From positions 1-41,525 of the forward strand of contig DASTYK010000188.1 in NCBI GenBank assembly GCA_035764935.1: a stretch of 41,525 nt of DNA, given 5' to 3'. The number at the start of each line of letters is the position of its first letter. Positions within the stretch are counted from its first letter, which is position 1. A program made the translations under genes and the position numbers. The DNA comes from Longimicrobiales bacterium. GTDB taxonomy: Bacteria > Gemmatimonadota > Gemmatimonadetes > Longimicrobiales > RSA9. Positions 3,932 to 35,996 of the stretch are shown here, one piece after another. The notes under the pieces are model-generated. The model was not told where the DNA came from. It did no database searches and saw only the letters and a program-made list of their open reading frames with translations.

Positions 3932-5083
3932 ATGAAGGGCCGTCCCTACGGAATGCTGATCGCGACGGTCTTCACCGTCCTGCTCCTGCTGTTCCTCTAC
4001 AGCATCGCAGAGATCCTGCTCCTCCTCTTCATCGCGATCCTGTTCTCCCTTTACCTGAGCGCGATCACGGACGCGCTGCAGCGGCGGCTGCACATGCCGC
4101 GCCCGGCGGGCCTCCTGCTCGCCCTGCTGCTGACCGGGGTGGGCGTCTTCGGGGTCGGCTATCTCATCATCCCGCCGCTGCTGATCCAGACGCAGGCGAT
4201 CCTGCAGACGCTGCCATCGCTGATGCAGGGGTGGGAGCGCGAGCTGATCGAGCTTTCCCGGGACCAGCCGTTCTTCGGTCAGATGCTCGGCGAGCTGGAG
4301 GAGGGTGAGAGCTACGTCTCCAACATCATCGGCGAGGTGAGCGGCTACTTCCGTGAGCTGCTGCCGTACGTGTTCAGCGGGGCCGGCTTCCTGATCGAGC
4401 TGATCAGCGTGCTCGTCATGGGCATCTACTTCGCGTTGCGGCCGTCCCTGTATCGCGAGGGCTTCATCCTGCTGTTCCCGCCCGTCCACCGGGAGCTGGT
4501 CCGCGACATCCTGGGCGACCTTTCCCGTACACTGCGCGCCTGGATCGTGGGGCAGATCCTCGCCATGCTCGTCCTCGGCGCGCTCACCTGGATCGGGCTC
4601 GTGCTGCTGCGCGTCCCGTACGCCCTCGCCTTCGGCGTGTTCACCGCCGTCGTCGCGATCGTGCCGTTCTTCGGCACCCTCGTCTCCACGATCCTCCCGG
4701 CCATGTTCGTCCTCGGCAGCACCGGGCCGGTGCACGCGCTGCTCGTCGCACTGCTCGGCGTGGTGGTGCACCTGATCGAGAGCAACATCGTCGCGCCCAT
4801 GATCATGGAGCGGCAGGTCCACCTCCCGCCCGTCCTCTCGATCCTGTCCGTGCTGGTGATGGCGCACCTGCTGCACCTGGTCGGGCTGCTCGTAGCCGTG
4901 CCGGTGCTGTGCGTGGTGATGGTGATCGCACGGCGCGTGTACGTGCACCGCGTCCTGGAAGGGAAGGGCTTCCGCCGCGCCGTCCGCGACCGCCCCATCG
5001 AGCTGCGGCTACCGGGAGAGGGCTCCGTGCTCGTGCATCCTGCCGGTATGGAGCAGTCCGTGCCGGCTCTCCTCGAGGGGTAG
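3932..5083 (+). CDS. AI-2E family (PerM/TqsA-like) membrane permease
   Basis: The 383-residue protein is very hydrophobic. It has paired helices at residues 8-45, further segments around 58-85, 145-170 and 200-245, and a C-terminal cluster at 265-335. The family signature appears in 'VPYALAFGVFTAVVAIVPFFG' and 'ESNIVAPMIMERQVHLPPVLS'. Family members include TqsA (autoinducer-2 export) and PerM-like permeases; the substrate of most is unknown, so AI-2 should not be assumed. The ATG at 3932 has GAGGACACGCA upstream. The gene stands alone between the pspA terminator and a convergent gene. Confidence 0.88.
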   Translation: MKGRPYGMLIATVFTVLLLLFLYSIAEILLLLFIAILFSLYLSAITDALQRRLHMPRPAGLLLALLLTGVGVFGVGYLIIPPLLIQTQAILQTLPSLMQGWERELIELSRDQPFFGQMLGELEEGESYVSNIIGEVSGYFRELLPYVFSGAGFLIELISVLVMGIYFALRPSLYREGFILLFPPVHRELVRDILGDLSRTLRAWIVGQILAMLVLGALTWIGLVLLRVPYALAFGVFTAVVAIVPFFGTLVSTILPAMFVLGSTGPVHALLVALLGVVVHLIESNIVAPMIMERQVHLPPVLSILSVLVMAHLLHLVGLLVAVPVLCVVMVIARRVYVHRVLEGKGFRRAVRDRPIELRLPGEGSVLVHPAGMEQSVPALLEG

Positions 5084-5098
5084 ATCGTTCTCCCGGTT

Positions 5099-5196
5099 TT
5101 CACACAGAGGTCACAGCGGACACGGAGGACACGGAGGCGTGAGCATGAACAACATGCCCCTCAGTGACCTCTGTGTCCGCCGTGCCTCTGTGTGAA
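5099..5196. repeat. Imperfect inverted repeat of 'CACAGAGG..CACGGAGG' type between convergent genes
   Basis: The left arm (5099-5135) reads TTCACACAGAGGTCACAG and continues with GCGGACACGGAGGACACGG. The right arm (5164-5196) is its near-perfect reverse complement, GTGACCTCTGTGTCCGCCG then TGCCTCTGTGTGAA. The arms pair over about 33 bases with a few mismatches and a 28-base centre. The left arm itself consists of short iterations of CACNGAGG. Its place between the 3' ends of two convergent genes suits a bidirectional terminator or a dispersed intergenic palindromic element. Confidence 0.6.
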
Positions 5197-5213
5197 CCGA
5201 AGGGATCCTTGAT

Positions 5214-7424
5214 CTAGGGCAGCCGGATCAGCCGTCCATCTTTGAACAGCGCAACGAGCTTCGAGTCCGGCGATGCACCCGCCCGCACGACGAACGCTGC
5301 TGTCGCCCCTGGCCTGAGTGCATTGCGGCCGTCGCGCTGGTCGAGCGCGTCCGGCAGCGGGTGCACGAACAGGCCCTCGGCATCGAAGTCGTCGCGGGCG
5401 AGGACGCCCTCGAGGTCGCCGATCTCGCTGATGCTGCCCTGGTCACGTGCGAGCGGGCCGTCGCCGACGTCGACGGCGAGGTCGGCACGGTAGGGCTGCA
5501 GGCCCGGGATGACGACTGTAGCGTTGCGGATCACCAGGTCGCGCAGCGCGCGGCCGTTCTCCGGCAGCAGCGTGTAGCGCTCGACCGGAGTATCCAGGTA
5601 GCTGCCGGTTGCGATCGCGTCGAACGCGCGGGTCAGCAGCACGAAGTTGGTGCGCCGCAGGACCTGCTTCTCGGGGTCGTCGTACCAGCCGCCGCTCTCG
5701 ATCAGCACCGTGCTCGTGCCCCACTGCTGCACGAGGTCGCCGAACGCGCGCGGATTGTAGCTGTCGTCGTAGCGCGTCACGTGTCCGGGCACCACCGCTT
5801 CCGCGGCGTCGCGCAGCGTGGCCGCGAGGTGCTTGGCGCGCGTCGCGACTTCGGGGTCGGTGCCGGGCTCGTCTGCGGCGGGTGCGAGCAGTGCGATCGC
5901 GGCAGTTCGCTCCGCGTTTCCGACCCGAGTGCGCGGGTTCTGGTCGTGCAGGTTGAAGCCGAAGCCGGGCTGGAAGCGGGTATGCACCGCCTTCAGCGTG
6001 CGCGCCTCGGGCGTGGACAGCCGGCGCGCGTCCCGGTTGATGTCGATCCCGTACATGTTGTGCCGGCGGAAGCGTGACGCGCCGTCCGGGTTCAGCATCG
6101 GGATCATCAGGATCGTGAGCGAGTCGGCCCAGAGCCGTGTGCGCGGGCCGTGCTTGTCCAGCAGGCGGACGACGTCGGCGAGCGCCATCGTCGCTGTCGA
6201 TTCGTCGCCGTGCATCTGCGACCAGAGCAGCACCGTGCGCGGCCCGCTGCCGAAGCGCAGCAGGTACAGCGGTCGCCCTTCCGCAGAGCGGCCGACCTCC
6301 TCCTGCCGCACCGTTCCGCCGAGCCAGGGAGCCAGGGTGCGCCAGTAGTGCTCGTGCGGCACACGCCGGTAGCCGACCTCGGGGACGAGCACGGACTCGT
6401 GCAGCGCGATCAGCGAGTCGACCGTGGCGTCCCGAGTATCGGATGGCAGCGCGAATGCATCCGACGTGACGTGCTGCCACACGATGCGCGAGAGGTCGGC
6501 ACCCAGGCGGTCGCCGGCGTCGGTGTCGTCGAAGCCGCGGGTCAGCACCACGAGCACGTAGGGTGCGCGCCCGGGCGGGTAGACGATCGCGCCGTCGTGC
6601 TGGATGCGCGTGATCCAGCCCGTCTTGTTCGCGACGCGCGTGCCCTCCGGCACACCCGCCGGGATCATGTCGTCGAACTCCTGCTGGGCGAGGATCTCGA
6701 TCCCCGTTTCGCAGGAGGCGGCGGTCAGCAGCCGGCAGCGTGCCAGCGCTTCGAGTACGCGGGCGAACGCGTCGGCAGTCGTGGTGTTGTTCATGCCCCG
6801 CTCAAATGCGGGGATGTCCTCGACGCCACGCAGCACGTTCATCCCCTGCGCATCGATGCGCGCGAGCGTGGCGCGCACGTCGTCGGCCGGGAATCGCTCG
6901 AGCATGATGTTGGTCGCGAGGTTGGACGAGCGCGTGATCATCCGCTCGAGCAGCTCACGCACCGTGGCTGGCTGGCCGATCCGCCCGTACAGCTCGCTGT
7001 CGCTGTCGTCGTCGGCGGACAGGGAATACGTGCTGCCGTCCGCGATGCTCCGGAACTCGTTGGTGACCGGGATCCGCTCGTCGAGACGCAGCGTGCCCTC
7101 GTCATTGCGACGCAGTGCTTCGAGCAGTACCGGCACCTTCATGGTGCTGGCAGCGTGCATCACGACGTCGCCATCGATGGAAACACGACGCCCGGTTTCC
7201 AGGTCGACGAACGACACGGCCACCTCGGCGCGCTCGCGTGCGATCCGCTCGCGCAGTGCACGTTCGAGTGCGGCCGTCGCTTCTGCGGGCGCTGCGGCAG
7301 GAGCGCCATCCTGCGCCGTACGGGCGTCGGGCGCGGTGCGTGCGGGTCCGGACGTCGCCTGCGTGCAGCCGGCCAGTACGAGTGCGAGGAGGACGGTTCG
7401 ACCCGTGATCATCTTCGGATGCAT
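5214..7424 (-). CDS. Lipoprotein fusing a class A beta-lactamase-like serine hydrolase to an M14 zinc carboxypeptidase
   Basis: The 736-residue protein has a lipobox ('LVLAGC', Cys20) and two catalytic domains. Domain 1 (about 45-325) has the serine-transferase triad: STMK at 93-96, SSN at 166-168 and KTG at 267-269. The omega-loop Glu of true class A beta-lactamases is not obvious ('FERGMNNTTTADAF'), so it may be a peptidase or amidase rather than a resistance enzyme. Domain 2 (about 355-605) is M14-like: HGDE at 405-408 and His493 as zinc ligands, 'NPDG', Arg464 in 'DINRD', and Glu576 in 'LIESGG' as general base. About 130 extra C-terminal residues may be a beta-sandwich. The gene starts 2 bases after the namZ stop. 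In this cluster it plausibly trims murein stem peptides on the cell surface (inference). Confidence 0.85.
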   Translation of the reverse strand: MHPKMITGRTVLLALVLAGCTQATSGPARTAPDARTAQDGAPAAAPAEATAALERALRERIARERAEVAVSFVDLETGRRVSIDGDVVMHAASTMKVPVLLEALRRNDEGTLRLDERIPVTNEFRSIADGSTYSLSADDDSDSELYGRIGQPATVRELLERMITRSSNLATNIMLERFPADDVRATLARIDAQGMNVLRGVEDIPAFERGMNNTTTADAFARVLEALARCRLLTAASCETGIEILAQQEFDDMIPAGVPEGTRVANKTGWITRIQHDGAIVYPPGRAPYVLVVLTRGFDDTDAGDRLGADLSRIVWQHVTSDAFALPSDTRDATVDSLIALHESVLVPEVGYRRVPHEHYWRTLAPWLGGTVRQEEVGRSAEGRPLYLLRFGSGPRTVLLWSQMHGDESTATMALADVVRLLDKHGPRTRLWADSLTILMIPMLNPDGASRFRRHNMYGIDINRDARRLSTPEARTLKAVHTRFQPGFGFNLHDQNPRTRVGNAERTAAIALLAPAADEPGTDPEVATRAKHLAATLRDAAEAVVPGHVTRYDDSYNPRAFGDLVQQWGTSTVLIESGGWYDDPEKQVLRRTNFVLLTRAFDAIATGSYLDTPVERYTLLPENGRALRDLVIRNATVVIPGLQPYRADLAVDVGDGPLARDQGSISEIGDLEGVLARDDFDAEGLFVHPLPDALDQRDGRNALRPGATAAFVVRAGASPDSKLVALFKDGRLIRLP

Positions 7425-29246: not shown

Positions 29247-30443
29247 CTAGACGTCGAGCCAGACGGGGCCGCCGTCCGACTGCGGGCGGCGCGGCCGCCC
29301 CTTGCCGCTGGTACCCGTCGCCCGCCGCGCACCGCCGACGCGGTTCCGCGCGCTCCGCTTCCGCTCGATCGGCACGACATCGCCGGTCGTCTCGTCCTGC
29401 GGCAACGGATAGCGGAACTCCTCGCCTGCATAGTTGCGCAGCACGACCTCGCGGTTGGTGATCGACTGCACGTACTCCGGCAGGATCGGGATCTTGCCGC
29501 CACCGCCGGGCGCGTCGATCACGAAGTGCGGCACGCCGAGCCCGCTGGTCCAGCCGCGGATCGCGCGGATGATCTCGATGCCCTTCTCGATCGACGTGCG
29601 GAAGTGCTCCCCGCCCGCCACCACGTCGGCCTGGTAGATGTAGTACGGCTTGACGCGGTTCTTGAGCAGCTTCTGCATGAGCAGCTTCATGACGGCCGGG
29701 TCATCGTTGACGCCCTTGAGCAGCACCGTCTGACAGCCGAGCGGGATGCCGGCGTCCGCGAGTCGCGCGAGTGCAATCTCCGATTCGGGCGTGATCTCGG
29801 CCGGGTCATTGAAGTGCACGTTCACGTATACCGGATGGTACTGCTGGATCATCCGTACCAGCTCCGGCGTAACGCGCTGCGGCAGGTGGCTCGGCACGCG
29901 CGTATGGATGCGGATGATCTCGATGTGCGGGATCTCGCGCAGCGTCTTCAGGAAGAACTCGATGCGCCGGTCCGACAGCAGGAACGGATCGCCGCCCGAG
30001 AGGATGACGTCGCGTACTTCCGTGTGCTCGCGCAGGTAGGCGAACGCGGAGTCGAACTGGTTCAGCGGGATCTTCTCGGGATCGCCCACCTTGCGACGGC
30101 GCGTGCAGAAGCGGCAGTAGCTCGCGCACACCGGCGACACCAGGAACAGCACGCGGTCCGGGTAGCGGTGCGTGAGGTTCGGCACGGGGGAATCCGCGTC
30201 CTCGTCGAGCGAGTCGACGATGCCATCGACAATGTCGTTTTCCGCCGGCGTCGGCACGTACTGCCGCCAGAACGCATCGCCGGGCGCCTGGATCTTGGCG
30301 AGCGCGGCCGGTGTGATCCGCAGGTTGAACCGATCGATGGCCTTCTGTACGGCTTCGCGGTCGATGTTCTCCGCGCCGAAACGCTCCACCAGCTCGTCGA
30401 CTGTCGTGACACTCTGTCGCAGGATTTCCTGCCAGCTCTCCAT
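29247..30443 (-). CDS. kamA: Lysine 2,3-aminomutase (KamA family radical SAM enzyme)
   Basis: The 398-residue protein has the radical-SAM cluster motif CASYCRFC (Cys106, Cys110, Cys113), 'ILSGGDPFLLSD', and the PLP lysine Lys317 in 'DAPGGGGKIP'. Asp273 ('YIYQADVV') and Asp310 ('VIDAPGG') match the two aspartates that hold the side-chain amino group of lysine in the Clostridium enzyme; glutamate mutases have other residues there, so lysine is the likely substrate, giving beta-lysine. The C-terminal 45 residues are basic and low-complexity. It is the last of four tightly packed genes, 14 bases after the GNAT gene. It is not an EpmB-type partner of EF-P by context. Confidence 0.92.
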   Translation of the reverse strand: MESWQEILRQSVTTVDELVERFGAENIDREAVQKAIDRFNLRITPAALAKIQAPGDAFWRQYVPTPAENDIVDGIVDSLDEDADSPVPNLTHRYPDRVLFLVSPVCASYCRFCTRRRKVGDPEKIPLNQFDSAFAYLREHTEVRDVILSGGDPFLLSDRRIEFFLKTLREIPHIEIIRIHTRVPSHLPQRVTPELVRMIQQYHPVYVNVHFNDPAEITPESEIALARLADAGIPLGCQTVLLKGVNDDPAVMKLLMQKLLKNRVKPYYIYQADVVAGGEHFRTSIEKGIEIIRAIRGWTSGLGVPHFVIDAPGGGGKIPILPEYVQSITNREVVLRNYAGEEFRYPLPQDETTGDVVPIERKRSARNRVGGARRATGTSGKGRPRRPQSDGGPVWLDV

Positions 30444-30457
30444 GGCACCCGTCCGGG

Positions 30458-30952
30458 TCAGAGTACGCGTCTGGCGAGGATCACACGATCATCGCCATCG
30501 GCGTAGAAATCGGGCACGCGCGCGACTTCCGTGAAGCCGCGCCGTTCGTAGAACGCCCGGGTGCTCGCATAGAGCTCCTGGCCGGACGTTTCGACGAGGA
30601 TCATGCGGGCGCGTCCGCGCAGCCGGCGCTCGACCTCGTCGATGAGCAGTGTACCGACGCCCGCGCGCTGCAGTGCGGGTGCGACGGCGATCCAGTAGAT
30701 GTCCCAGGTCCCGACCGTGCACGGTGTGGGGCCATAGATCACGTAGCCGGCCAGCGCGCCGTCCGCCGCGAGCGCGGCGTGAGCGCTGTAATCCGTATCG
30801 GGCGCCGCGCAGTACGCGTCGAACACCTCGAGCGCGACGTCGATCTCGTCCGCGCGGAAGTAGCCGGTGTCGCGCAGCAGACGCTCGAGCGCCGCGCGGT
30901 GGGTGGGAAGCAGGCCGCCGATGCAGACGGCGTCGGTCACGGGCGAGCTCAT
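30458..30952 (-). CDS. GNAT-family N-acetyltransferase
   Basis: The 164-residue protein has the GNAT core: 'GYVIYGPTP' strand, 'WDIYWIAVAP' (beta4), the acetyl-CoA loop 'LQRAGVGTLLIDEVE' (Q-x-x-G-x-G), and 'LYASTRAFYERRGF' with the C-terminal Tyr typical of catalysis. In the known ablA-ablB pair an acetyltransferase next to lysine 2,3-aminomutase makes N-epsilon-acetyl-beta-lysine, so this enzyme may acetylate beta-lysine or a product containing it (inference). The ATG at 30952 overlaps the stop of the upstream ATP-grasp gene by 4 bases (ATGA). Confidence 0.88.
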   Translation of the reverse strand: MSSPVTDAVCIGGLLPTHRAALERLLRDTGYFRADEIDVALEVFDAYCAAPDTDYSAHAALAADGALAGYVIYGPTPCTVGTWDIYWIAVAPALQRAGVGTLLIDEVERRLRGRARMILVETSGQELYASTRAFYERRGFTEVARVPDFYADGDDRVILARRVL

Positions 30953-31920
30953 GCGTGCACCGCAGACAGCGCATCGTCCAGGATGCGCTCGACCAGCTCC
31001 GTGTAGCTCCATCCTGCCACGTGCGCCATGCGCGCCAGGCCGGCGGAGGGTGCCAGGTCCGCGTTGGGATTCACGTCCAGCACGTGCAGCACACCGTGCG
31101 CGTCTGCGCGCAGGTCCACGCGACCGTACCCACGACGCGCGATCGCACGCCACGCCGTATGCGCAGTCTCTATCGCCTGCTGCGCGAGCCTGGGCGTGAC
31201 GCCGGCAGGGCAGACGACACGCGTGCCGGTGTCCTCGACCGAGCCCGTGTTCCACTTTGCCGCGTATCCCACCACGCGCGGGAGCTGCGGGGGCATCGCA
31301 CTGTAGTCGATCTGCGCAACGGGCAGTGCCGTATCACCCACGAAGCCGACGACCAGCTCCACGCCATCGAGAAACTGCTGAGCGAGCAGTGGGACGTGCG
31401 CGCGCGCGTCATGCAGCGCACGCTCGAGCTCCGCAGCGTCGTGCACGACCGCGCTCTGGCCGATTCCGATTCCCGCGTCCTCGCCGGCCGGCTTCACGAT
31501 GGCAGGGAAGTGCGTCCAGTCCGTCTGCGTATCGAACGTTTCGTCCACAAGCACCCACCGCGGCACCGGCAGGCGCGACTGCAGCAGCAGGTTCACCCGG
31601 TCCTTGCGACGCGCGAGCGCAAGGGCTTCCGCGTCGGCACCCGTGAAGGGCAGGTCCGACGCAGCGATCGCCCGCGCGGCGTCGGCCTCCGCCGCTGCAT
31701 CGCCGTCCAGTCCCTCGCACAGGTTGAATACGACGTCCACCGCGCAGGTTTCGAGTGCGTGCATCCAGTTGCCGGTCGCGGAAGCGCCGATGCGCACGCA
31801 ACCGTGCCCCAGCGACATCAGCGCAGCCGCAACAGCATCCACCGTCTCGAGCACGCCGGCGACGTCCGGAGCTGCGCCGGGCGCATCCGCGTGCGCGTCG
31901 TACACGATGGCGGCTCTCAT
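30949..31920 (-). CDS. ATP-grasp ligase, D-Ala-D-Ala-ligase-like (ligase A)
   Basis: The 323-residue protein has a Ddl-like layout: 'VVFNLCEGLDGD' in the N-terminal domain, 'DLPFTGADAEALALARRKDRVNLLL', the ATP lid 'FPAIVKPAGEDAGIGI', and the magnesium-binding end 'RVDLRADAHGVLHVLDVNPNADLAPSAGL' in which Asp and Asn replace the usual Glu-x-Asn. Such enzymes join a carboxylate, as acyl-phosphate, to an amine. It is clearly diverged from the ATP-grasp protein encoded just upstream, so the pair may act in sequence. It overlaps both neighbours by 4 bases. A wall D-Ala-D-Ala role is unlikely given the KamA and GNAT context. Confidence 0.87.
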   Translation of the reverse strand: MRAAIVYDAHADAPGAAPDVAGVLETVDAVAAALMSLGHGCVRIGASATGNWMHALETCAVDVVFNLCEGLDGDAAAEADAARAIAASDLPFTGADAEALALARRKDRVNLLLQSRLPVPRWVLVDETFDTQTDWTHFPAIVKPAGEDAGIGIGQSAVVHDAAELERALHDARAHVPLLAQQFLDGVELVVGFVGDTALPVAQIDYSAMPPQLPRVVGYAAKWNTGSVEDTGTRVVCPAGVTPRLAQQAIETAHTAWRAIARRGYGRVDLRADAHGVLHVLDVNPNADLAPSAGLARMAHVAGWSYTELVERILDDALSAVHA

Positions 31921-32960
31921 GCGACCCGTCCGATGCGCCGGAGCGCCGTGTCGAGCACGGTGAGAATCAGTGTGTCGTAGTCCATGCCGGCTGCGCGTGC
32001 AGCCTTGGGAAAGCAGGAGTTCTGGCGCGGGTCGGGAAGAATGCCGGGCAGGGGGTTGATCTCCAGTACATGCGGCTGGCCGGCGTCGTCCAGCCGCACG
32101 TCTACCCGTCCCCAGTCACGGCAGCCGAGCGCGTGGTATGCGCGTAGCGCCGCATCCTCGATCCCGCGTGCGAGCGCACTGTCCACGTGCGCCGGACACG
32201 CGAAGATCTCGAGCGGATTCTCCGGCACGTCCCACACCCACTTCGCCTCCCAGCCGTAGATGGGCACGGCTCCAGCCGGCAGCGCGGAGAGCGCAATCTC
32301 GACCAGCGGGAGCGCGTGTGCTTCCGCACCGTTGCCGAGGACTGCCACGGTGAACTCGCGCCCGCCCAGAAACCGCTCGACGAGTGCAGGCTGCGCGTAC
32401 CGCTCATGCATCGCACGAACGTGTGCCTCGAGCTGCGCCGTCGTGGTGCACAGCGACGCCTCGCTGATGCCCATGCTGGAGCCCTCGTGCACGGGCTTCA
32501 CGAACCACGGCCCGCTGCCGGGCGCAGCGAACGGCATGTCGGGCGCCGCCACGCACCACTCCGGCGTCGGCACGCCCGCGGCCGCGAACACCTGCTTCGC
32601 GCGCGCCTTGTGGTGCGCGAGCGTGAGCGTCAGCGGATCACTCGCCGTGTAGGGGATTCCGTAGAACTCGCAGATCGCCGGGACGTGTGCTTCCCGGTTC
32701 GGGCCGTGCAGCCCTTCGGCGATGTTGAAGACGATGTCGGGGTGCGTATCGCGCAGACGCGAAGGAAAGTCGGCGTCGGCCTCGAGGCGGATCACCGTTC
32801 CCGCACGCGCAAGCGCGGCGGCGACGGCGTCGATCGTGGCGGGGTCGTCCCACTCCGCGTAGCGGTCGTGGGTGCCGAGACTTGGGGGCTCGTCTTCCCC
32901 TTCCGGGGCATCCTCGGTTGGCTTCTGGTTGAACGCGAAGCCGATGCGCAGATCCTGCAC
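31917..32960 (-). CDS. ATP-grasp ligase, D-Ala-D-Ala-ligase-like (ligase B), first gene of the kamA operon
   Basis: The 347-residue protein has 'DIVFNIAEGLHGPNREAHVPAICEFYGIPYTASD', 'HHKARAKQVFAAAGVPTPEW', the lid 'WFVKPVHEGSSMGI', 'VERFLGGREFTVAVLG' and the metal site 'RVDVRLDDAGQPHVLEINPLPGILP'. All are D-Ala-D-Ala-ligase marks, with a complete Glu-Ile-Asn metal motif. An acidic insert follows the first strand ('EDAPEGEDEPPS'). The start is GTG 32960 with AGGGGT before it. A terminator-like hairpin ends 12 bases upstream of the start. With ligase A it forms an unusual tandem of two amide-bond ligases feeding from or to a beta-lysine enzyme. Confidence 0.88.
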   Translation of the reverse strand: MQDLRIGFAFNQKPTEDAPEGEDEPPSLGTHDRYAEWDDPATIDAVAAALARAGTVIRLEADADFPSRLRDTHPDIVFNIAEGLHGPNREAHVPAICEFYGIPYTASDPLTLTLAHHKARAKQVFAAAGVPTPEWCVAAPDMPFAAPGSGPWFVKPVHEGSSMGISEASLCTTTAQLEAHVRAMHERYAQPALVERFLGGREFTVAVLGNGAEAHALPLVEIALSALPAGAVPIYGWEAKWVWDVPENPLEIFACPAHVDSALARGIEDAALRAYHALGCRDWGRVDVRLDDAGQPHVLEINPLPGILPDPRQNSCFPKAARAAGMDYDTLILTVLDTALRRIGRVA

Positions 32961-33060: not shown

Positions 33061-33171
33061 GCACGACCCACCCGTGCGTAAGGGGGTTGTTCGGGGGCGT
33101 GCCGGAGCGGGCGATTGCTTGCCCGCTGCGCGCACATGGGCCTACCTTGCCCGCCAGCAAGGAGCCGCCTT

Positions 33172-34299
33172 TTGATCCATCTCCAACTCGCACTTCCGCC
33201 GGACGGCTGTGACGTCTACATCGACGCCGGCCTGCTGGAAGTCGTCCCGTCCAGCATCCTCGAGGCCGTGCCCGCGGCGCATTACGGCATCGTGGCCGAC
33301 AGCCACGTAGCGGACACGTATGCCTGGCCGCTCGCGACCGCACTGCGCGAGGAGGGCGTGCGGGCGGACGTCGTATCCTTTCCGGCCGGCGAGGCGCACA
33401 AGTCACGCGAGACCTGGGCGGAGATGACGGACGCGCTGCTGGCGCGCCGGCTCGGCCGGGATGGCTGCATCATCGCGCTCGGTGGCGGCGTCGCCTGCGA
33501 CCTGGGCGGGTTCGTTGCCGCCACGTACATGCGCGGCCTGCCCTGTGTGCAGGTGCCGACCTCGCTGCTGGCGATGATCGACGCCTCGATCGGCGGCAAG
33601 ACCGCGGTGGATGTGCCTGCCGGCAAGAACCTGGTCGGCGCGTTCCTGCAGCCGCGCCTCGTCGCGATCGACCCGCTGGCCTTGCGGACGCTGCCGGAGC
33701 GGGAGCTGCGCGGGGGGCTGGCCGAGGCGCTGAAGCACGGGGCGATCGCGGATGCCGACTACCTTCGCTGGATCGGTGCGAGCACCAGCGCGCTGCTGGC
33801 GCGGGAGCCGACGGCACTCGCGCACCTGATCCGGCGCTCCGTGGAGATCAAGGCCGCCGTCGTGCAGGCCGACCCGCTGGAGCGGGGCGTCCGTGCCATC
33901 CTGAATTTCGGCCATACGGTCGCACACGCGATCGAGGCACTCTCGGCCTATGCAGTCCCACACGGCTACGCCGTAGCGATCGGCATGGTCGCCGAAGCGG
34001 AGATCGGCGAGGCGGCGGAGGTGACGGAGCCGGGCACCGCGGCCGAGCTGCGCAGGGTGCTCCAGGGGCTCGGCCTGCCGACGGCGCTGCCCGCCGGCCT
34101 CGCGCCTGCCGACATCCTGAGCGCTGCCGCGTCGGACAAGAAGGCGCGCGCGGCGCGCATCCGCTACGCCCTGCTGAGCGAGGCCGGCTCAACGGCCACG
34201 GACCGCAGCGGCTCGCATACGATCGCGGTGGAGGACGCCGTGGCGCTGCGTGCGCTGAGCCGCTGTCAGCCGAGGGAACGACGCGACGCAAGTGTTTGA
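33172..34299 (+). CDS. aroB: 3-dehydroquinate synthase
   Basis: AroB converts DAHP to 3-dehydroquinate, the second step of the shikimate pathway. The 375-residue protein has the NAD-binding 'LGGGVACDLGGFVAATYMRGLP', the substrate region 'QVPTSLLAMIDASIGGKTAVDVPAGKNLVGAFLQP', 'LAEALKHGAI' and the zinc histidines in 'LNFGHTVAHAIE' and 'PHGYAVAIGM'. The start is the TTG at 33172, with AAGGAG exactly 7 bases upstream; it begins 'MIHLQLALPPDGCDVYID', while the longer frame has no ribosome binding site. A short basic tail extends beyond the usual end. Confidence 0.95.
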   Translation: MIHLQLALPPDGCDVYIDAGLLEVVPSSILEAVPAAHYGIVADSHVADTYAWPLATALREEGVRADVVSFPAGEAHKSRETWAEMTDALLARRLGRDGCIIALGGGVACDLGGFVAATYMRGLPCVQVPTSLLAMIDASIGGKTAVDVPAGKNLVGAFLQPRLVAIDPLALRTLPERELRGGLAEALKHGAIADADYLRWIGASTSALLAREPTALAHLIRRSVEIKAAVVQADPLERGVRAILNFGHTVAHAIEALSAYAVPHGYAVAIGMVAEAEIGEAAEVTEPGTAAELRRVLQGLGLPTALPAGLAPADILSAAASDKKARAARIRYALLSEAGSTATDRSGSHTIAVEDAVALRALSRCQPRERRDASV

Positions 34300-34325
34300 C
34301 TGCCGTGCGCGGCGTCCGCTATCTT
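34296..34325 (+). promoter_or_regulatory. Promoter for the acyl-CoA ligase gene
   Basis: TTGACT at 34296-34301 and TATCTT at 34320-34325 are separated by 18 bases and lie over the end of aroB. Transcription would start near 34332, about 60 bases before the ATG at 34392. Confidence 0.55.
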
Positions 34326-34391
34326 CGGCGGCGTGACGGTATGTCGGCGGACCGCGACGGTGGGCCCCTGGTGGGCGGCTCTGGAGGCGTA

Positions 34392-35996
34392 ATGGCGCTC
34401 GACCAGCGTTTCGCTGGGCACACGGTCGCCGGCGTCCTCGAAGCGCAGGCTGCCGAGAACCCCGACCGCGTCTTCCTCATTGCGGGGAATCGCCGCTTCA
34501 CCTACGCGCAGGTCAATGCCCGGTCCACGGCACTCGCCGCGGCGCTGATCGAGCTGGGCGTGGAGCGCGGGGACCGGATCGCCGTCGACCTCCCCAACTG
34601 GCCGGAATTCGTCGTCTCCCTTTTCGCGGCGGCCAAGCTCGGCGCCGTGATCGTTCCGCTCAATCCGCGCTACACCGTGCCCGAGCTGCAGTACATGCTG
34701 CGGCACTCGGAAGCCACGGTGGTGATCAGTGCCGAGGATTTCGGCGGCACGGACTACCTCCAGCTCTTCGAGGGCTTCCTCACGTCGCTGCCCGAGCTGC
34801 AGTACCTGGTCACGGTAGGCGAGGAGGACCTGTGGTACGACGACCGGATCTACCAGTTCGAGGATCTGGTCTCCAGCGGGGAGTCCGGAACGGAGGTCGT
34901 GACGCCGGAGCTCGATCCGGTACAGGATACGTTCGCGATCCTGTACACATCGGGCACGATGGGCAAGCCCAAGGGGGTCGCGCTCACGCACGAGAACCTG
35001 ATCTCGACGTCGGCACTCACCGCCGACGCCATCGGGCTCTCGGCGGACGACGTCGTCTTCGGTGTCACGACGGTCTTCCACGTCTTCGGTCTCGGCCCCG
35101 GCATCATCGGGACCGCCATGGCGGGCGCGACGCTGGTGCTGCAGGAGCAGTTCCTGCCTGACGAGGCGCTGCACCTGATCGAGCAGCACCGGGTGACGGT
35201 GCACTATGGCGTGCCAACGGTGTATGTCACGGAGATGCGCGAGCTGGACGTCACCGAGGCGGACCTGTCGTCACTCCGCGTCGGGATCGTGGCCGGTGCC
35301 CCCATCGGCGATGAGCTCGTGCAGCGGATCCGCGACGCGCTCTGCCCGAACCTCCACGTCGCCTACTCGCTGACGGAGACCAGCTCCACCGTCGCGATGA
35401 CGCGACCGGAGGACCCGCTCGACAAGAAGCTCTTCACCGTGGGGCGCCCGTTGCCGGGCACGGAGATGCGCGTGCTCGACCTGGACGGTACGATCCTGCC
35501 CAGTGAGAGCCTCGGTGAGATCGCGGTGCGTGGGCCCGGTATCATGAAGGGCTACTACCGCCAGCCCGGCGAGACGGCGCAGGTCTTCGACGACGAGGGC
35601 TACTTCCTCACGGGCGACCTGGGCATGATCGACGAGGACGGGTTCGTGCATATCGTCGGTCGTCGCAAGGAGCTGATCATTCGCGGCGGCTTCAACGTCT
35701 ATCCGCGCGAGGTGGAGGACCGGCTGCACGCGCATCCCGCGGTGCTGGACGTCGCGGTCGTCGGGCTGCCGCACGAAGTGCTGGGCGAGGTCGTGTGCGC
35801 GTGCGTGGTGCCCGTCGAAGGTGCGATCGTGACGGGCGAAGAGATCAAGGAATGGTGCCGCGGCACGCTCGCGGACTACAAAGTACCGGACCTCGTCCGG
35901 TTCTTCGACTCCTTCCCGCTAACCGGCAGCGGCAAGGTTCGCCGAGTCGAGCTGGCCCGCATGGTCAGCGCCGAGGAGTCGAGCCGGCGGCCATAG
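34392..35996 (+). CDS. AMP-forming acyl-CoA synthetase (long-chain fatty-acid-CoA ligase type)
   Basis: The 534-residue ANL-superfamily enzyme activates a carboxylic acid with ATP and CoA. Motifs are 'ILYTSGTMGKPKGVALTHEN' (P-loop, about residue 183), 'AYSLTETSS', 'GEIAVRGPGIMKGYYRQP', 'TGDLGMIDEDGFVHIVGR', 'RKELIIRGGFNVYPREVE' and the C-terminal catalytic lysine in 'TGSGKVRR'. The start is ATG 34392 with GGAGG before it; an ATG at 34341 is in frame but lacks one. It probably uses fatty or related acids; the chain length cannot be read from the sequence. A perfect 10-bp hairpin at 36033-36057 follows its stop. Confidence 0.92.
   Translation: MALDQRFAGHTVAGVLEAQAAENPDRVFLIAGNRRFTYAQVNARSTALAAALIELGVERGDRIAVDLPNWPEFVVSLFAAAKLGAVIVPLNPRYTVPELQYMLRHSEATVVISAEDFGGTDYLQLFEGFLTSLPELQYLVTVGEEDLWYDDRIYQFEDLVSSGESGTEVVTPELDPVQDTFAILYTSGTMGKPKGVALTHENLISTSALTADAIGLSADDVVFGVTTVFHVFGLGPGIIGTAMAGATLVLQEQFLPDEALHLIEQHRVTVHYGVPTVYVTEMRELDVTEADLSSLRVGIVAGAPIGDELVQRIRDALCPNLHVAYSLTETSSTVAMTRPEDPLDKKLFTVGRPLPGTEMRVLDLDGTILPSESLGEIAVRGPGIMKGYYRQPGETAQVFDDEGYFLTGDLGMIDEDGFVHIVGRRKELIIRGGFNVYPREVEDRLHAHPAVLDVAVVGLPHEVLGEVVCACVVPVEGAIVTGEEIKEWCRGTLADYKVPDLVRFFDSFPLTGSGKVRRVELARMVSAEESSRRP

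Follow-up and report, generated by a model that had tools for sequence, protein, structure and literature searches.

Beta-lysine is known to us from only a few bacterial contexts, namely the modification of elongation factor P (EF-P), one osmolyte and a few antibiotics. EF-P is modified with beta-lysine via EpmA and EpmB, and in the ablA-ablB pair of methanogens and bacteria a lysine 2,3-aminomutase gene stands beside an acetyltransferase gene, the product being the osmolyte N-epsilon-acetyl-beta-lysine. The N-acetylglutaminylglutamine amide (NAGGN) pathway, in which one GNAT/ATP-grasp fusion and an asparagine-synthase-like amidotransferase act on glutamine, likewise combines an acetyltransferase with an ATP-grasp ligase, and makes a blocked dipeptide solute. 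Among ATP-grasp enzymes, the D-Ala-D-Ala ligases (Ddl) have well-established roles assigned to their ATP, Mg, transition-state and substrate residues. Here, we describe a four-gene operon encoding two Ddl-like ATP-grasp ligases (ATPG1 and ATPG2), a GNAT-family acetyltransferase (GNAT) and a radical-SAM lysine 2,3-aminomutase-like enzyme (KamA), located on a 41,525-nucleotide stretch of Longimicrobiales bacterium (assembly GCA_035764935.1, contig DASTYK010000188.1; the whole stretch is hereafter the window) that belongs to a 3.83 Mb draft genome with relatives in the Gemmatimonadota.

It is very probable that this operon makes some small molecule with beta-lysine in it. On balance, and with moderate confidence, we read it as a dedicated biosynthetic route to a small, non-ribosomal, peptide-like metabolite, namely an acetylated amide that contains beta-lysine. 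An earlier note on this DNA had proposed a beta-lysine conjugate pathway, an interpretation that is supported by the separate clades of the two ligases, the co-occurrence of the genes across phyla and the invariant lysine-type residues of KamA.

Organization and conservation of the operon

The genes are encoded on the minus strand in the order ATPG1-ATPG2-GNAT-KamA, spanning 29247-32960 (Table 1). The compact layout described in the earlier note, with two 4-base overlaps and one 14-base gap, was borne out: the ATPG1/ATPG2 and ATPG2/GNAT junctions are ATGA overlaps of 4 bases each, and 14 bases separate GNAT from KamA. Comparison with Pfam and NCBIfam assigned both ligases to Dala_Dala_lig_C (122 bits for ATPG1 and 75 bits for ATPG2), the third protein to the GNAT family (RimI-like, 45 bits), and KamA to Radical_SAM plus LAM_C.

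Table 1. Genes of the operon and their positions in the window
Gene	Product	Coordinates	Strand	Length and signals
ATPG1	First Ddl-like ATP-grasp ligase	31917..32960	-	347 aa, GTG start (32960), TGA stop (31917)
ATPG2	Second, diverged Ddl-like ATP-grasp ligase	30949..31920	-	323 aa, ATG start
GNAT	RimI-like N-acetyltransferase, not AblB	30458..30952	-	164 aa, ATG start
KamA	Radical-SAM/pyridoxal phosphate (PLP) lysine 2,3-aminomutase	29247..30443	-	398 aa, ATG start

Within the window's family, the ligase pair was detected in 7 of 12 genomes and the four-gene order was kept wherever the contig was long enough, with about 80% identity among relatives for KamA and about 50% for ATPG2. Across a set of 298 genomes from the window's phylum, full-length ATPG1 was found in 94 and a strong KamA in 84, such that 82 genomes carried both, 12 ATPG1 only, 2 KamA only and 202 neither (Fisher p about 2e-57, a statistic that ignores kinship). 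The two KamA-only exceptions are a contig break (G230) and a genome with an AblA-type KamA (G068). ATPG1 was also present in 16/199 and 34/198 genomes of two further phylum samples, and 32 of the 40 loci examined from these samples contained the full four-gene set.

A collection-wide scan, with one genome per species, yielded 80 loci, some truncated by contig ends. The order ATPG1-ATPG2-GNAT-KamA was found in at least 52 of these, from seven named phyla (Gemmatimonadota, Acidobacteriota, Bacteroidota, Ignavibacteriota, Kryptoniota, Thermodesulfobacteriota and Myxococcota by NCBI labels); the single-ligase ATPG1-GNAT-KamA loci L122 and L124 were left out of this count. The ATPG1/ATPG2 overlap is exactly 4 bases in 48/97 loci, and one genome (L203) has the four genes together in another order, KamA-ATPG-ATPG-GNAT. 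The four proteins have correlated pairwise distances (r 0.64-0.88, with 0/500 permutations as high), and the tree of ATPG1 mirrors that of ATPG2, with the same groups in both. The association of the four genes is more than chance, and the conserved order, co-occurrence, correlated distances and mirrored trees together indicate that the set is inherited or transferred as a unit. The expectation of the earlier note that the genes would be found together in related genomes thus holds both in the window's phylum and in other phyla.

KamA and the two ligases

The best model for the window KamA is lysine 2,3-aminomutase (437 bits), below the curated AblA cut-off of 525.4 (TIGR03820), and the protein is therefore filed as a lysine 2,3-aminomutase-like KamA, not as AblA. 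Its residues 3-372 can be aligned to 2A5H, the solved lysine 2,3-aminomutase of Clostridium, and the alignment equates Asp273 and Asp310, which the earlier note had singled out as retained, with Asp293 and Asp330 of that enzyme, the two residues by which the lysine side chain is bound. The window KamA also carries the CxxxCxxC motif and the PLP lysine K317. All 68 operon KamAs have the Arg, both Asp and the three cysteines of the cluster; the PLP Lys is found in 67 of them, the alignment having a gap at this position in the other. The second Asp position is Glu in E. coli EpmB. These residues make lysine a well-supported predicted substrate, and we infer that KamA is active as an aminomutase.

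Both ligases fail the curated Ddl cut-off of 243 bits, scoring 176 (ATPG1) and 113 (ATPG2) with the best Ddl model; a canonical Ddl, which is 38% identical to E. coli DdlB and matches the Ddl domain with 176 bits, is encoded on a separate contig, C99. Among solved structures, Ddl is closest to both ligases in sequence and fold searches. The sequence search gave about 145-152 bits to Ddl but only about 30 bits for ATPG2 against cyanophycin synthase, glutathione- and cyanophycin-type enzymes being remote matches, and the AlphaFold models (predicted local distance difference test scores of 88.6 for ATPG1 and 92.9 for ATPG2) each have Ddl as the nearest solved fold. In the ligase tree, a quick tree with some long branches, the 22 true Ddl fall apart from the others (Shimodaira-Hasegawa-like approximate likelihood ratio test support of 99), ATPG2 forms a clade with support of 100 that includes two KamA-linked relatives, and the operon ATPG1 clade has support of 94. 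The earlier note had named a firm grouping with true Ddl or with cyanophycin- or glutathione-type enzymes as an outcome that would overturn its proposal; neither the tree, for Ddl, nor the sequence matches, for the other two types, bear this out.

The catalytic residues for ATP, Mg and the transition state are retained: with alignment columns numbered after E. coli DdlB, K97, E187, K215, R255 and D257 are identical to Ddl in all ATPG1 and ATPG2 members, and K144, E270 and N272 are kept with rare exceptions. Two substrate-pocket positions are changed in both families: H63 is replaced by E, and Y216 by W (102/113 ATPG1 and 96/96 ATPG2). The ATPG1 family, with the motifs AEWD, EAKW.WD and NPLPGILPxPxxNSC, retains Ser150, Gly276 and Ser281, the acceptor-carboxylate residues of Ddl, so that a carboxylate is probably still part of its acceptor. 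In ATPG2, G276 is replaced by D in 95/96 members and S281 by A in 91/96, both positions being unchanged in nearly all ATPG1, and nearly every ATPG2 member also has S150 replaced by A and L282 by G; in the window ATPG2 the acceptor-carboxylate site is replaced by D288, A293 and G294. Given the changes at these four positions, the acceptor of ATPG2 is probably an amine without an adjacent carboxylate.

Proposed pathway

In the proposed scheme, KamA would convert lysine to beta-lysine, after which ATPG1 and ATPG2, as specialised amide ligases sharing a Ddl-like ancestor, would act in sequence via acyl-phosphate chemistry. ATPG1 would form an amide between a carboxylate and an amino-acid-type acceptor bearing its own carboxylate, ATPG2 would couple a carboxylate to an amine without a nearby carboxylate (either a polyamine or beta-lysine through its side-chain amine), and GNAT would acetylate a remaining amine as the last step. 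We infer beta-lysine as a ligase substrate, as well as the sequence in which the enzymes act and the amine that is acetylated. A soluble intracellular product is favoured over a wall or exported one because the operon has no constant companion among transporter, carrier-protein or wall genes. Acetyl-beta-lysine is the basis of an analogy with osmotic and stress solutes, which weakly supports a compatible solute or stress metabolite as the most likely role.

Several points weigh against the proposed scheme. Four Gemmatimonadota genomes (G152, G183 and G208, all single-contig assemblies, and G134, in 20 contigs with an estimated completeness of 100%) carry the ligases without KamA at E <= 1e-40, implying that beta-lysine is dispensable for some such pathways or is supplied from elsewhere; some ligase pairs lack an adjacent GNAT; in a set of deltaproteobacteria the unlinked KamA might serve EF-P instead; and the pocket assignments of the ligases come from alignment only.

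Replacement of KamA by another aminomutase was considered for the KamA-less genomes and rejected: a radical-SAM KamA relative (31-36% identity) was present in five f4 genomes, adjoining GNAT only in G253, and none was found in four others that were rechecked. This divergent relative of about 460 aa, seen at L220 (2034-3422) and L221 (16810-18201), keeps both Asp and lacks the GGGGK loop.

Alternative readings

The best-surviving alternative, which we consider possible but rather unlikely, is that the product is a beta-lysine-polyamine (or -agmatine) conjugate, with ATPG1 making the beta-lysine acid and ATPG2 coupling the polyamine. It draws on 12 deltaproteobacterial loci in which the ligase pair lies directly behind at least one of a pyruvoyl arginine decarboxylase, an agmatinase and a deoxyhypusine-synthase-like gene (identified by Pfam in L120, L127, L139, L141 and L151, and by protein resemblance in L186, L187, L190, L192, L193, L194 and L196). 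At L141, the decarboxylase gene PvlArgDC (4806-5381) overlaps ATPG1 (5378-6385) by 4 bases. A polyamine acceptor would also account for the loss of the carboxylate-binding residues from ATPG2, where Asp replaces Gly276 and Ala replaces Ser281. Against this, no polyamine gene lies in the operon of Gemmatimonadota, Acidobacteriota or Ignavibacteriota, co-location may mean shared regulation only, and the acceptor is deduced from alignment. KamA is not linked to the ligase pair at L120, L127, L139, L141, L151, L186 and L194, and in all six deltaproteobacterial genomes tested that have a KamA-less locus, KamA is located elsewhere in the genome. Taken together, the polyamine-linked loci and the ligase genomes without KamA suggest that beta-lysine may not be the sole amine used.

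Other variants of the locus were also found. A third ATP-grasp gene is present in L120 (ATPgrasp_ST-like), L127, L129 and L186, some polyamine-linked deltaproteobacterial loci also carry methyltransferases, Nitrospinota loci consist of KamA-ATPG1 only, and some metagenome-assembled genomes have ATPG1-GNAT-KamA. In G374 and G439, genes for a histidine kinase and an NtrC-type regulator come after ATPG1, ahead of KamA and an ATPG2-type ligase. Such a series, with a small regulator directly before KamA, was observed at L197 (5693-12816), L198 and L199, where it suggests sigma-54 control of the variant cluster.

Two further alternatives appear improbable. In one, the operon would make N-epsilon-acetyl-beta-lysine as ablA-ablB does, as the adjacency of KamA and GNAT might suggest, and the ligases would serve another process. 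However, a search of the window's genome for AblB (TIGR03827) gave no match, the operon GNAT included, which rules out the classical ablA-ablB pair; the ligases occur and evolve together with KamA, and they persist in loci without GNAT; and a true AblA-type KamA (764 bits, above the AblA cut-off) exists separately in G068, a genome of the same phylum that lacks the four-gene operon.

In the other, equally doubtful, the operon would attach beta-lysine to a protein or peptide, either EF-P or another acceptor. Beta-lysylation of EF-P is known, some ATP-grasp ligases modify proteins, and a lone ATPG1 lies beside a small membrane protein in L263, L264 and L266. Yet EpmA was not found above the curated cut-off in any of the 298 genomes of the phylum (0/298), the matches being lysyl-tRNA-synthetase-sized (LysS) proteins, and EF-P beta-lysylation is accordingly rejected for the window's phylum. 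Moreover, G374 and G336 encode two KamAs each, one beside EF-P and EpmA and the other near the ligase (by position in G336), and both operon ligases have Ddl-type folds, known members of which use small molecules. The separate KamA copies and the lack of EpmA in the window's phylum indicate that the operon pathway is distinct from EF-P modification, and the genomes with both kinds of KamA provide a clear example of beta-lysine serving two purposes in a single cell. At L273 (5311-8206) and L274 (4138-6671), EF-P, EpmA and a KamA-family gene are clustered, and the same genomes hold a second, ligase-linked KamA.

Finally, a D-Ala-D-Ala-type function of the ligases, in cell-wall or resistance chemistry, is very unlikely: although Ddl and Van ligases give the best family matches and the closest solved folds, the two proteins score far under the curated cut-offs, form a separate clade and have changed substrate residues, and a true Ddl role is ruled out by the tree, the residues and the canonical Ddl on contig C99.

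Neighbouring genes

A search around the loci for a recurrent fifth gene (carrier protein, transporter or peptidase) found none recurring across phyla; the neighbours that do recur, among them thyX, recG, aroB and a gene for an AMP-binding enzyme, are specific to particular lineages. Upstream of the operon, at 33115-35996 of the window, lie aroB and an AMP-binding enzyme gene, both divergent from it, and since similar neighbours recur in L074, L075 and L080, this synteny is old in the window's lineage. The convergent neighbour at 28008-29246 matches the Hvo_1808 surface-protein family below the threshold and has a DUF6782 metallopeptidase-like region. The stand-alone ATPG1 of L263 (2675-4128), L264 and L266 overlaps or abuts its membrane-protein neighbour, which has at most a weak BON-domain match, and KamA is unlinked there. 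A possible paralogous pathway is found in G005, a relative: at L086 (8427-10092), two additional Ddl-like genes lie close to a second ligase-GNAT pair, which has diverged to about 40% and 36% identity.

Significance and comparison with known systems

The enzyme types are known, and the combination, its breadth and the acceptor-site change in ATPG2 appear to be new. We found no account of KamA or beta-lysine with ATP-grasp ligases in the open-access literature, although a 2009 survey of amidoligase neighbourhoods was not covered and priority is uncertain. We consider it as likely as not that the operon stands for a widespread, so far unrecognised class of metabolites. These would be acetylated beta-lysine amides, either peptides or polyamine conjugates, formed by two neofunctionalised Ddl-like ligases, and the pathway would be conserved in seven phyla or more, with rewiring to polyamine synthesis at some loci. 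If so, it would add a new use of beta-lysine through a four-gene pathway common to soil, groundwater and sediment phyla, and annotations would be corrected, since family models see both ligases as D-Ala-D-Ala ligases. The operon is a small, fully defined gene set, suited to expression in a laboratory host for product discovery.

Compared with Ddl and Van ligases, ATPG1 and ATPG2 have the same fold and the same ATP, Mg and oxyanion residues but form a separate clade with H63 replaced by E and Y216 by W, the acceptor-carboxylate site is lost in ATPG2, and the canonical Ddl is encoded elsewhere. The NAGGN pathway is alike in outline; no GNAT/ATP-grasp fusion was seen in the window, an amidotransferase not having been searched for, and relative to the NAGGN pathway the operon has separate genes, two ligases and KamA. 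With the EpmA/EpmB system it shares a KamA-family enzyme making beta-lysine, but EpmA is missing from the phylum sample and, elsewhere, EF-P/EpmA has a separate KamA copy. Like ablA-ablB, the operon sets a lysine 2,3-aminomutase beside an acetyltransferase and keeps all KamA substrate and cofactor residues, but its KamA scores 437 against the 525.4 bits set for AblA, its GNAT is not AblB, and it adds two ligases.

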